Source of the DNA: Hyphomonadaceae bacterium
GTDB lineage: Bacteria > Pseudomonadota > Alphaproteobacteria > Caulobacterales > Hyphomonadaceae
Direction of reading: 5' to 3'
DNA: 64,000 nucleotides
NCBI GenBank assembly: GCA_022844475.1
Contig: JALHLR010000012.1
Span: forward strand, 1-64,000
Shown here one piece after another: positions 58,227 to 64,000 of this stretch (its first letter is position 1; each line of letters begins with the position of its first letter). The position numbers and the translations under genes were made by a program. The notes beneath the pieces were generated by a model that was not told the origin of the DNA, searched no databases, and saw only the letters and a list, made by a program, of their open reading frames with translations.

Positions 58227-60506
58227 TCAGCGCCCCTGAGAAAAGAGGACGAAGGCCACGAAGATCACGGCCGAAAGGAGAACCACCAGTGCGTAGTGGA
58301 AAATGTAACCGGTATGCAGCTTCGACAGCCCGCCAGCGCCCGCCTTGGCAAGGCCGGTCACGCCATCCGGTCCCATGCCGTCAATAATCTTCTTGTCTCC
58401 GACCTTCCAGAACAGGTCACCCAGCGCGGCCGTCCCTTTGACGAAAACGAAATTGTAGATCTCGTCGAAATACCATTTGTGCGACAGGAATGAGTGCATC
58501 GGCCCGCCGTTCGCCGCCATGCGACGCGGCACGCCCGGCGCCATCAGATAGAAGATGATCGCACCGATGAACCCCGTCATCGTCACCACGAACGGCGCCC
58601 AAACCACCCAAAGCGGCAATTCATGATGTTCTTCGGCATGCTCGGCCGCTCCGGCAGCAGCCGCATGCTCGCCACCGGCAGGAGCAGGATGAGCCTCCTC
58701 CGCGGCGGGAGCATGGCCTTCCGTGGCGCCATGTTTTTCGGTCGCCGCGCCGTACGGATGGATCCCCTTCGGGCCATACAGCGGGTCCGCCTCGCGAACG
58801 ATCGCGCCTTGCCAGAACGCATCGGCCTTCGACGTGAGGAATTGTGGCTTGAAAACGAATCCCGCGAACACCGCTCCGATTGCCAGCAGCACCAGCGGAA
58901 CAAGCATGATCCAGGGCGACTCATGCGCAGGCGCGCGTCCGTCCTTGGGCGCTGCGTGCGCGTGGTCATGTCCATGCGCATGGTCGTCGGCATGAGCATG
59001 GTCATCATGGTGCGCATGCGGATTCGGGCGATAGCGCCCCTCGAACGTCATGAACATCAGGCGCCACGAATAGAAGCTCGTCAGCAGTGCCGCTGCAATG
59101 CTGCACCAGAAGGCAAACGGCCCGAACGCGTCGTTCGATGCATAGGCGCTCTCGATAATCGCATCCTTGGAAAAGAAGCCTGCGAAGCCAAAGTCCGTGC
59201 CCGGAATTCCGAACCCGATCAGCGCCAGCGTGCCGATCAGCATCATGGCCCAGGTGAAGATCATCGGCTGGCGCACGCCCCCCATGAAGCGCATGTCCTG
59301 TTCATGGTGCATACCGTGGATGACCGAGCCGGCTCCAAGGAACAGCAGCGCCTTGAAGAAGGCGTGCGTGAACAGGTGGAACATCGCCGCACCATAGGCG
59401 CCAACGCCGGCCGCGAAGAACATGTAGCCCAGCTGCGAACAGGTCGAATAAGCGACCACGCGCTTGATGTCGTTCTGCGCCAGGCCGACCGTAGCGGCAA
59501 ACAGGCAGGTCACCGCCCCGACGACCGTGATCATGCTGGAGGCAACATCGGCCACCGCATAGAGCGGCGACGCGCGGCAAACGAGGAAAACGCCAGCGGT
59601 CACCATGGTCGCCGCGTGGATCAGCGCCGACACCGGCGTCGGGCCTTCCATAGCGTCAGGCAACCAGGTGTGCAGGAAGAACTGGGCCGACTTGCCCATC
59701 GCGCCGATGAACAGAAGGATGCCGGCCATCTCCAGGCCCCAGACATGCACGCCCAGGAAGTCGAACGTCACATCCTGGATCGGCATGGCCGCAGCCTGCC
59801 CGATCACCTGAACCGGCGCATTGTTCGCAATCACCGCGAACACCGTGTCGAACTTGATCGACGAGAATTCCGTGATGCCGAACTGCGCGTAGTCCACGCC
59901 AGCCACCGGGTGAACCATCATGACAAGCGCCATGATTCCGAGCACGAAACCGAAATCGCCGACGCGGTTGACCACGAAGGCCTTGATCGCAGCGCTGTTC
60001 GCCGACGGCTTCTTGTACCAGAACCCGATCAGCAAGTAGGACGCGAGCCCCACACCTTCCCAGCCGAAGAACAGCTGGATGAAGTTGTCCGCCGTCACAA
60101 GCATCAGCATCGCGAAGGTGAACAGCGACAGATAGGCGAAGAAGCGCGCGCGATGCGGATCCTCGCTCATGTATCCGATCGAGTAGGTGTGCACGAGTGC
60201 CGAGACGCTCGTCACCACGAACATCATGGTCACCGACAGCGCATCGATACGAATAGCCCAGTCTGCGATGAAAGTGTCGACATTGAACCAGCGTGACAGA
60301 ACGATCGTCACCGCGCCGCCGGATTGCCCGCCCAGCGACCAAGCGAAAAACTGCCAAGTCGCCAGCACTGCCGCCGAGATCACGATCGTCGTCGTGACGG
60401 CCATGGCGCCCCGGTCACCCAGGAAACGCTGGCCAAGGCCGGACACCGCGGCGGCGACGCCCGGCGCAAGCACGATGAAGATTGCCGCGATTTCCTGGAA
60501 GGTCAC
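58227..60506 (-). CDS. nuoL: NADH-quinone oxidoreductase subunit L with His-rich loop
   Basis: Distal antiporter-like pump subunit, with the lateral helix HL at the C-terminus. 759 residues, longer than the 613 of E. coli. The core is ordinary (FFGWEGVGLASYLLIGFWY, KSAQFFLHTWLPDAMEGPTPVSALIHAATMV). The extra length comes from two hydrophilic loops: residues 497-517 contain ten histidines mixed with Asp and Ala, and a Glu/Ala/His-rich loop lies near 595-635. Such loops occur in other alphaproteobacterial NuoL; a metal-buffering role is only a guess. Confidence 0.95.
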   Translation of the reverse strand: MTFQEIAAIFIVLAPGVAAAVSGLGQRFLGDRGAMAVTTTIVISAAVLATWQFFAWSLGGQSGGAVTIVLSRWFNVDTFIADWAIRIDALSVTMMFVVTSVSALVHTYSIGYMSEDPHRARFFAYLSLFTFAMLMLVTADNFIQLFFGWEGVGLASYLLIGFWYKKPSANSAAIKAFVVNRVGDFGFVLGIMALVMMVHPVAGVDYAQFGITEFSSIKFDTVFAVIANNAPVQVIGQAAAMPIQDVTFDFLGVHVWGLEMAGILLFIGAMGKSAQFFLHTWLPDAMEGPTPVSALIHAATMVTAGVFLVCRASPLYAVADVASSMITVVGAVTCLFAATVGLAQNDIKRVVAYSTCSQLGYMFFAAGVGAYGAAMFHLFTHAFFKALLFLGAGSVIHGMHHEQDMRFMGGVRQPMIFTWAMMLIGTLALIGFGIPGTDFGFAGFFSKDAIIESAYASNDAFGPFAFWCSIAAALLTSFYSWRLMFMTFEGRYRPNPHAHHDDHAHADDHAHGHDHAHAAPKDGRAPAHESPWIMLVPLVLLAIGAVFAGFVFKPQFLTSKADAFWQGAIVREADPLYGPKGIHPYGAATEKHGATEGHAPAAEEAHPAPAGGEHAAAAGAAEHAEEHHELPLWVVWAPFVVTMTGFIGAIIFYLMAPGVPRRMAANGGPMHSFLSHKWYFDEIYNFVFVKGTAALGDLFWKVGDKKIIDGMGPDGVTGLAKAGAGGLSKLHTGYIFHYALVVLLSAVIFVAFVLFSQGR

Positions 60507-61543: not shown

Positions 61544-62029
61544 CTATCGATAGCGTGCATCCAGTTCCAGATTGCGCGCGATCTCGCGTTCCCAGCGGTC
61601 GCCATTCTCCAGAAGTCGTTCCTTGTCGTAGTAGAGTTCCTCGCGCGTCTCTGTCGCAAACTCGAAATTCGGCCCCTCGACGATGGCGTCCACCGGGCAG
61701 GCTTCCTGGCAGAAGCCGCAATAGATGCACTTCACCATGTCGATGTCATACCGCGTCGTGCGGCGCGAGCCGTCTTCGCGCGGCTCGGCCTCAATCGTGA
61801 TCGCCTGCGCCGGGCAGATTGCCTCGCACAGCTTGCACGCAATGCAGCGCTCTTCGCCATTCGGATAACGGCGCAGCGCATGCTCGCCGCGAAAGCGCGG
61901 GCTCAGCGGCCCCTTCTCGAACGGATAGTTCACCGTGGCCTTGCGCGTGAAGAACTGGCGCATGGCGAGAAAGAACGCCCCGATGAAGTCCGTCAGAAGT
62001 GCGCCGCGAATGGCCTGGCCGATTGACAT
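61544..62029 (-). CDS. nuoI: NADH-quinone oxidoreductase subunit I
   Basis: Peripheral-arm subunit with two 4Fe-4S clusters (N6a, N6b), relaying electrons toward N2. 161 residues: [12 protein letters not shown] and [12 protein letters not shown] supply the eight cysteines, preceded by [17 protein letters not shown]. Three bases from nuoH. Confidence 0.97.
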
Positions 62030-62032
62030 GGC

Positions 62033-63241
62033 TTACCTCGCCCCTCTGCGGTACTCGGGCCAGCTGATGCGACCGTCATTGTTTGCGTCGACACCCATCG
62101 GCAGCGTCACCGCCGCAAGTTCCGACGCTTCAAGATACCCGCTGTTGTCCGCGTCCATTGCATCGAAATCCGGTCGCCCCTGCGCGTTCATGAAAGTCGC
62201 GTAGCCGCCGATCAGAACCACAGCCACCAGCGACGTCGGCAGGAAGATCTTCCAGCCCAGCCGCATCAGCTGGTCATAGCGATAACGAGGCACGATCGCC
62301 TTCACCATCGCAAACAGGAAGAAGAAGAACGTCACCTTGACCATGAAGACGAGCAGGCCGCCGAGGCTGAGCAGCCAGTCCGGCAGATTCTCGGTTCCCG
62401 GGATCGGGACCGGCATGTGCCAGCCGCCGAAGAACAGGATGGTCAGCATCGCGCACATCAGCACGATGGAGACGTATTCCCCGATCATGAACATCAGGTA
62501 CGGCGACGAGGAGTACTCGACCTGGTAGCCGGCCACGAGTTCCGACTCCGCTTCCGGCAGGTCGAACGGCGGGCGGTTCGTCTCGGCTAGAGCCGAGATG
62601 AAGAAGATCACGAACATCGGGAACATGACGAAGATCGTGGGGAATGCGAAAGCGTGCCAGTTCCAGATGCCACCATCCTGGTTCGCCACCACGTCGCTGA
62701 GGTTCAGCGAGCCGACCAGCAGCAAGACACTGACGATCACGAAACCGATCGACACCTCGTACGACACCATCTGCGCCGCAGAGCGAAGGCCGCCAAGGAA
62801 CGGATACTTCGAGTTTGACGCCCAGCCACCCATGATGATGCCGTAGACGCCAAGCGACGAGATCGCGAACAGGTACAACACGCCGACATTGAGATCGGCC
62901 ACTACCCACCCGGGCGCGACCGGAATCACGGCCCAGCCAACCAGCGCAAGCGTCAGCGTGATGATCGGCGCCAGCAGGAACACCGTCTTGTTGGCGCCGG
63001 CAGGAATGACGATCTCTTTCAGAATGAACTTCAGAAGGTCCGCGAACGACTGCAGCAGGCCAAACGGACCGACCACGTTCGGTCCCTTGCGCATCTGCAC
63101 CGCCGCCCAGACCTTGCGATCGAACAGCAGCAGGAAGGCGATGCAAACCAGCATGATCAGAACGAGCGCAAGGATCTGCGCGACGGCGAGCAGGATCGCG
63201 ATCACCAGGTCGTTGCCGCTAATCTCGAGGAGCTTTTCCAT
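62033..63241 (-). CDS. nuoH: NADH-quinone oxidoreductase subunit H with C-terminal EF-hand pair
   Basis: Forms part of the quinone chamber of complex I. 402 residues from the ATG at 63241; the usual length is about 340-350. Eight transmembrane helices are visible, with [20 protein letters not shown] and [20 protein letters not shown] in the quinone-facing loops. After the last helix a tail of about 45 residues carries two 12-residue loops of canonical EF-hand form: residues 363-374 (D-D-S-G...E) and 385-396 (D-N-D-G...E). From NuoH topology the tail should be periplasmic. Reading is continuous, no frameshift. Confidence 0.95.
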
Positions 63242-63249
63242 GCTTGCTC

Positions 63250-64000
63250 CTACTCCGCCGCAACGGCGGGGCTGACGCCCGCCGCAAGCTCGGCGCACTC
63301 CGCCATGGTCCGCGAAGCCCGCGCGATCGGATTGGTCAGGTGGAAGGCGCGGATCGGCGCCGTGAAGGCCGCGGAGGTCATCTGCCCGGCCGCGCCATAA
63401 GGCGGCGCAACCGACTCGCTGTGCCGGCCCGGCGCATAATCGAGACCGAGGAAGGTCGGATGATCCTTGCCCAGCTTCTCGCGCAGCTGCGCCAGTGAGT
63501 CATACGGCAGCGTCCTGCCCACATAGGCCGACAGCGCCCGCACGATGGCCCAGTCTTCGCGCGCATCGCCCTTCGGCGCCACGGCGCGCTGGGTCCGCTG
63601 CACGCGACCTTCGGTGTTGACATAAGTCGCCGACTTCTCGGTGTAGGCTGCCGCCGGCAGGATCACATCCGCCCGATGAGCGCCATTGTCGCCATGGCTG
63701 CCGATATAGATGACGTTCGCATTGCCGAGCTTCGACGTATCGATTTCGTCCGCGCCGAGCAGCAGCACAGTCTTGATATCCCCCGACTGCGCGCCCGCGA
63801 TGATCCCGGCCACATCCCTGCCGCCAGCCGACGGCAGGAAGCCGAGATCGAGCCCGCCCACGCGCGCCGCAGCCGTGTGAAGCACGTTGAAACCGTTCCA
63901 GGCGTCCGTGAACGCGCCGACTGCATTCGCGAGCGACGAGACGGCATGCAGCACGGCCCCGCCATCGCCACGCATGAACGCGCCCTGCCCGACAATGATC
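63250..64000 (-). CDS. nuoG: NADH-quinone oxidoreductase subunit G, C-terminal part
   Basis: Only the C-terminal 250 residues are in the window; the start lies beyond position 64000. The visible part belongs to the molybdopterin-oxidoreductase-like domain ([43 protein letters not shown]). The N-terminal iron-sulphur domain is outside. It ends 8 bases before nuoH. Confidence 0.93.

Follow-up and report, generated by a model that had tools for sequence, protein, structure and literature searches.

Calcium has been reported at several places in respiratory complex I. In the E. coli enzyme, Ca2+ was suggested as a stabiliser of a NuoG loop (PMC8357420), whereas the complex of Paracoccus denitrificans holds several bound Ca2+ ions, at NDUFS2, NDUFS6/NDUFS8, ND2 and ND4, and its authors cite a Ca2+ dependence of catalysis and stability, while regarding two ions on the periplasmic surface as perhaps adventitious (PMC11522691). 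The passages of these two papers that deal with the Ca2+ sites do not mention an EF-hand (PMC8357420, PMC11522691), and the main text of a review of complex I accessory subunits is free of the terms "EF-hand", "calcium" and "Ca2+" (PMC8762328). Lanmodulin (LanM), an EF-hand protein with a compact loop spacing, is periplasmic (PMC9260416). In the locus described here, two EF-hand loops sit instead on NuoH, as a C-terminal tail, and no description of such a tail on NuoH or on complex I was found in the open-licence PMC literature.

The window, that is, the whole 64,000-nucleotide stretch that was analysed, comprises positions 1 to 64,000 of contig JALHLR010000012.1 from a Hyphomonadaceae bacterium (assembly GCA_022844475.1). 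Its nuoH gene (62033..63241, minus strand), recognised by the NADHdh and NuoH models, encodes 402 residues from an ATG at 63241. The ORF finder proposed a GTG start at 63298, and the resulting 421-residue reading would run into the end of nuoG at 63250; the nuoH ORFs of relatives have similar N-termini (MENLF, MQNLF, MEYLF or MERMF). The downstream nuoI gene (61544..62029, minus strand) starts 3 bases past the nuoH stop codon, an ordinary operon junction. The product is identified as NuoH by the NCBIfam equivalog NF004745 (548.8 bits, cut-off 450), by the Pfam NADHdh model (404.5 bits in the 421-residue reading, cut-off 27) and by the position of its gene between nuoG and nuoI in the nuo operon. 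It shares the whole core of the NuoH/ND1/Nqo8 family, including the quinone loops, and the best-scoring solved chain is 8qby_H (NADH-quinone oxidoreductase subunit H), which we take to be the Paracoccus one. None of the 36 distinct solved sequences found at E 1e-5 reaches the tail, their best stretches going no further than residue 348.

Past the membrane domain the nuoH frame continues unbroken into a tail of about 51 residues with two canonical 12-residue EF-hand loops, all on the minus strand. The eighth and last transmembrane helix in the hydropathy scan (62192..62248, residues 332-350), with five K/R in the loop before it, is followed by a linker (62156..62191, residues 351-362) that has an invariant Arg and Phe ahead of loop 1 in the alignment. 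Loop 1 (62120..62155, residues 363-374) and loop 2 (62054..62089, residues 385-396), each delimited by profile, alignment and pattern scan, flank a 10-residue segment defined by the latter two methods (62090..62119), and the protein ends in YRRGAR (62036..62053), the Tyr-Arg of which is invariant across 10 genomes. The scan with the pattern D-x-[DNS]-x-[DNSTE]-G-x-[ILVMF]-x3-[ED] returned the two loops at 62155-62120 and 62089-62054, 10 residues apart, exactly where the initial annotation had read them. These were the only two matches in the 84,550 residues of stop-to-stop frames of at least 60 residues in the window, and two non-overlapping loops appeared in none of 200,000 shuffles of the tail; the pair is therefore not a chance occurrence. 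Both loops have ligands at positions 1, 3, 5 and 12, Gly at position 6 and an aliphatic residue at position 8, with Asp at position 6 of loop 1 in one of the ten tailed genomes. The profile search that had been proposed along with the initial reading likewise scored above the cut-offs of EF-hand_5 (34.1 bits against 25.9, over two stretches of the NADHdh-matching protein, 421-residue reading) and EF-hand_1 (25.5 bits against 25.4), and at E 0.01 both models match all ten tails.

The likeness to the EF-hand superfamily consists of the two canonical loops with all ligand positions in place, whereas the arrangement of these loops differs. In a canonical pair, such as those of calmodulin, about 24 residues separate the loops; the 10 residues found here would be too few for a full helix-loop-helix pair, and the loops are fused onto a polytopic membrane protein. 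The best stretch for the Pfam pair model EF-hand_7 covers only positions 8-27 of 67, with 21.9 bits for the whole protein and 28.9 bits for a 65-residue piece against a cut-off of 30; a 47-residue version of the tail reached 30.5 bits, just above the cut-off, yet no individual stretch passed. The description of the tail "as in a paired EF-hand" thus stands for the two loops and fails for their spacing. AlphaFold gave pLDDT below 50 across most of the tail in the full model, the alignment of which contained no other tailed proteins, and a mean pLDDT of 60, again of low confidence, for the tail alone.

A profile of the ten tails matched 277 distinct solved sequences at E 0.01. Among the best 60 of these, mostly EF-hand chains matched over one loop each, both whole loops (profile positions 3-42) were spanned only by lanmodulin (6mi5_X) and by 8fns_A, an "EF-hand domain-containing protein" that is presumably also a lanmodulin. 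Both have a compact loop spacing like that of the tail, which is three residues shorter, and lanmodulin is a free protein, whereas the tail is fused to NuoH. The LanM family model gave the nuoH product 13.9 bits against a cut-off of 135, which rules out membership, and Pro at loop position 2, a hallmark of lanmodulins, is also missing from all 20 tail loops. By score and signature, the tail is lanmodulin-like in layout and not a member of the family. Elsewhere in this genome, seven EF-hand ORFs have adjacent loops that are 12 to 107 residues apart. One further ORF of the genome resembles, by eye, a dicarboxylate/amino-acid:cation symporter (L127, G000:C1:66614-66748); the part that separates its first hydrophobic stretch from the second contains two EF-hand loops and is expected to face the periplasm.

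A search with the tail alone found it in 10 of the 15 genomes of the genus. Among the other members, G093, G094, G098 and G100 have a tail-less NuoH, and no NuoH was found in G096. At the family level, NuoH was matched in 99 of 105 genomes, and the C-termini read in 30 loci comprise nine with the tail, one cut by a contig end (G099) and 20 that stop soon past helix 8. The tailed frame is unbroken in nine genomes (the window's own and eight others), and in the tenth, G099, a second contig begins in the loop before helix 8 and continues through both EF-hand loops. Outside these 30 loci and the second G099 contig, the family matches end at or before query residue 381, loop 1 starting at residue 382 of that query; for G089, where the match stops at residue 249, and for the six genomes with no match the family search is uninformative.

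Beyond the family, none of the 80 related loci from named genomes (the best 80 among the matches listed) has the tail. In the order (398 genomes), the cut-off of E 1e-9 was passed by 18, of which eight, all from the same genus, cross the tail and ten match the helix only. Two of 385 genomes of the class passed E 1e-7 and 13 of 398 genomes of the phylum passed E 1e-6, and the tail was crossed in the window's genome only; in each of these scans at most the best 14 or 15 candidates per genome were scored, the samples share genomes, and a strongly diverged tailed NuoH could escape at such cut-offs. Two matches that seemed to extend further were discarded on reading: a nuoH on a Sinorhizobium medicae plasmid ends at helix 8, and a Brevundimonas SH203 tblastn match to residue 388 lies in a frame with no tail. 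Within the related loci and the overlapping family, order, class and phylum samples, no tail was found outside the genus, and the alignment of relatives proposed in the initial annotation shows it kept in ten genomes of that one genus.

The window's genome is a draft of 50 contigs and 78% completeness, which would favour a sequencing or assembly artefact, or a frameshift that joined a separate EF-hand gene to nuoH, as had been considered at the outset. However, the fusion site is identical in ten genomes that differ at many silent positions, and no free-standing homologous EF-hand gene was detected in the 15 genus genomes at E 0.001. With ten genomes carrying the fusion, a frameshift or assembly error is ruled out, the probability left to any such artefact is practically nil, and the NuoH fusion is real. 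In the core-NuoH protein tree, from which the tail was excluded, a branch with support 99/99 separates the tailed rows from all others (15 rows, leaving out G095 and seven tail-less outgroup rows), and the same split has support 100/99 in the core-NuoH DNA tree of 13 rows. On these trees tail-less rows of the same genus surround the tailed clade, and the simplest history that they suggest is one gain of the tail.

As to the source of the tail, loss of the nuoH stop codon with extension into old intergenic DNA was rejected, since in four tail-less genus members just 30 bases separate the nuoH stop from the conserved RGA motif of nuoI. Such a gap is too small to be the source of the tail, and an insertion or fusion is required. 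No donor was found: at E 0.001 the tail search of the 15 genus genomes returned NuoH tails alone. A precursor gene at the nuoH-nuoI junction was also considered and dismissed, as the small ORFs present there in related loci are lipoprotein-like and have no EF-hand loop by eye.

These junction ORFs merit a separate description. At least 29 of the 80 related loci have, between nuoH and nuoI, a small ORF that encodes a lipoprotein-type signal and in many cases overlaps the stop codon of nuoH (L004, L009, L014, L015, L020, L026-L031, L034, L035, L037-L040, L043, L046, L051, L053, L054, L057, L067, L069, L075, L077, L079 and L081). Similar ORFs occur in L016, L055 and L059, beyond the 29 counted by pattern, and L017 was left out of the count because its ORF is an out-of-frame reading of nuoI. 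By sequence, the ORFs are of two types or more (GGVATYDALK...CKRK and SVYQWERRQ...RLC); they occur mostly in Caulobacteraceae-labelled genomes and possibly represent a candidate accessory lipoprotein of complex I. In L064 and L071 (Phycosocius/Aquidulcibacter), 287 bases separate the nuoH stop from the nuoI motif, and the small ORF in this gap is of another kind, with two hydrophobic stretches.

The membrane side of the tail was assessed from the topology of NuoH. Nine segments were found in the hydropathy scan, the weakest of which (residues 56-74, score 1.47, after helix 1) presumably corresponds to the amphipathic helix at the membrane surface of ND1/Nqo8; with this segment set aside, eight membrane helices remain. 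Under the eight-helix reading, the K+R counts are 6, 2, 1 and 5 in the cytoplasmic loops, the count of 6 leaving out segment 56-74, which holds one more, versus 0, 0 and 0 in the periplasmic loops. The number of helices and the K+R distribution together put the C-terminus outside, whereas nine true helices would place it inside, and the 5 K+R of the tail itself, next to 9 D+E, also count against an outside location. With eight helices the tail is predicted to be periplasmic, under the NuoH heel of complex I, and the periplasmic placement in the initial annotation agrees with this topology. Its further suggestion of a site next to the quinone-binding arm has to be abandoned, because the peripheral arm and the quinone loops are cytoplasmic and the tail is predicted to exit on the opposite side of the membrane.

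Conservation within the tail is concentrated at the putative ligands. At positions 1, 3, 5 and 12, the two loops of all ten genomes have only residues with oxygen in the side chain (80 of 80 cells), whereas the initial annotation had named loss of the loop ligands in all relatives as evidence against it. In loop 1, positions 1, 5, 8, 9, 10 and 12 are invariant, position 3 is Asp or Asn, and position 6 is Gly in nine of ten genomes; in loop 2, positions 1, 5, 6, 9 and 12 are invariant and position 3 is Asn or Asp. Mean entropy is 0.25 bits at the ligand positions versus 0.90 bits elsewhere in the tail, a value as low as that of the ligands being reached by 1.1% of 20,000 random position sets. 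Silent sites of the ten tails are heavily diverged (pooled pS 0.59), and pooled pN/pS is 0.39 in the tail versus 0.13 in the NuoH core (45 non-independent pairs, with 28 core codons only from G099), so that, measured against silent change, the tail has an evolutionary rate about threefold that of the core. None of the ten tailed genomes has a truncated or decayed tail. By these substitution patterns the tail is under purifying selection, strongest at the putative metal-binding residues and weaker than that on the core. At the same time, complex I does not need the tail, since G093, G094, G098 and G100 of the same genus have NuoH proteins that lack it. Judging from the alignments and trees, the tail is a real, conserved and clade-specific variant of a very conserved subunit.

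Comparison of tailed (G000, G095 and G104) and tail-less (G093, G098 and G100) genomes revealed no gene going with the tail near the operon, based on mechanically called ORFs and on G098 and G000 regions that do not span the whole operon. Two genes upstream of the nuo genes, which in this comparison matched only among tailed genomes, were tried as tail-linked candidates and rejected: all 15 genus genomes have the first, an M1-peptidase-like gene, and 13 of the 15, including the tail-less G093 and G098, have the second, a T2SSN-like gene.

We give even chances to the reading that we prefer, in which the tail, gained once and kept, is constitutively loaded with Ca2+ and serves to stabilise or dock NuoH on its periplasmic face, not to sense Ca2+. 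A compact two-loop EF-hand module would have been joined once to the NuoH C-terminus in the ancestor of one Hyphomonadaceae-type clade, and the tail would bind, and be folded by, Ca2+ that reaches the periplasm from outside. The Ca2+ concentration is generally far higher in the periplasm than in the cytosol, so the sites would normally be loaded. Stabilised by its Ca2+, the loaded tail may work as a clamp or docking patch, either making NuoH firmer on its outer surface or gripping a periplasmic or supercomplex partner, a job akin to that of accessory subunits in other complex I enzymes. The Ca2+ suggested at the E. coli NuoG loop (PMC8357420) and the bound Ca2+ of the P. denitrificans enzyme (PMC11522691) are precedents for this reading. 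Permanent loading in the periplasm would suit either of these roles better than that of a switch. An envelope anchor would differ in that the tail has no action on complex I itself: an acidic, putatively Ca2+-binding tail would tie the enzyme to peptidoglycan, a lipoprotein or another respiratory complex. The predicted periplasmic position fits this idea, as do the invariant non-ligand residues (e.g., Arg before loop 1 and Tyr-Arg after loop 2), and the lipoprotein-like ORF at the nuoH-nuoI junction of at least 29 of 80 related loci hints that this edge attracts periplasmic additions. Nevertheless, those ORFs belong to other genera and have no EF-hand loop by eye, and with no tail-associated partner gene near the operon we regard an anchor as unlikely.

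A role as a Ca2+ sensor, in which periplasmic Ca2+ would reshape the tail and tune the turnover or the open/closed state of complex I from outside, could explain why both loops keep all ligands. It also has precedents in a periplasmic EF-hand protein of Caulobacter, called a calcium sensor by its authors (PMC13171946), and in the Ca2+ dependence stated for P. denitrificans complex I (PMC11522691). However, the quinone arm and the loops are predicted to be on opposite sides of the membrane, neither a partner nor a regulated element was seen, and the genus includes tail-less relatives. Outside Ca2+ would, moreover, often saturate periplasmic sites, and a sensor seems rather improbable to us. More doubtful still is a periplasmic metal switch, in which Ca2+ or a lanthanide, the latter considered because of the lanmodulin-like loop spacing, would alter the outer face of NuoH and hence turnover or the open/closed balance, making respiration directly responsive to metal from outside. 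The tail might finally be a near-neutral passenger, acquired by chance and tolerated, as the four genus genomes with a readable tail-less NuoH end and the faster evolution of the tail relative to the core might indicate, but not one of the 80 ligand cells is lost despite the silent-site divergence, pN/pS is well below 1 and none of the ten tails has decayed, all of which make a passenger very unlikely.

NuoH is a highly conserved core subunit of complex I, and an addition to it amounts to a natural experiment in the stabilisation or control of the enzyme. A dedicated periplasmic Ca2+ module, if the preferred reading of a loaded clamp or docking patch is right, would offer a handle on the reported Ca2+ dependence of alphaproteobacterial complex I, and the occurrence of tailed and tail-less species in one genus provides a ready-made comparison.

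Two further features were observed in the nuo genes. Between nuoE and nuoF there is an ORF of 75 residues (L148:5664-5891, minus strand) with no Pfam match at E 0.01; it has matches in G095, G098 and G093 and none listed in G104 and G100. The product of nuoL (58227-60506, minus strand) has an insert rich in His, HAHHDDHAHADDHAHGHDHAH, as well as a second stretch rich in His and Ala; inserts of this type are absent in the tailed G104 and the tail-less G093, and similar ones are present in the tailed G095.
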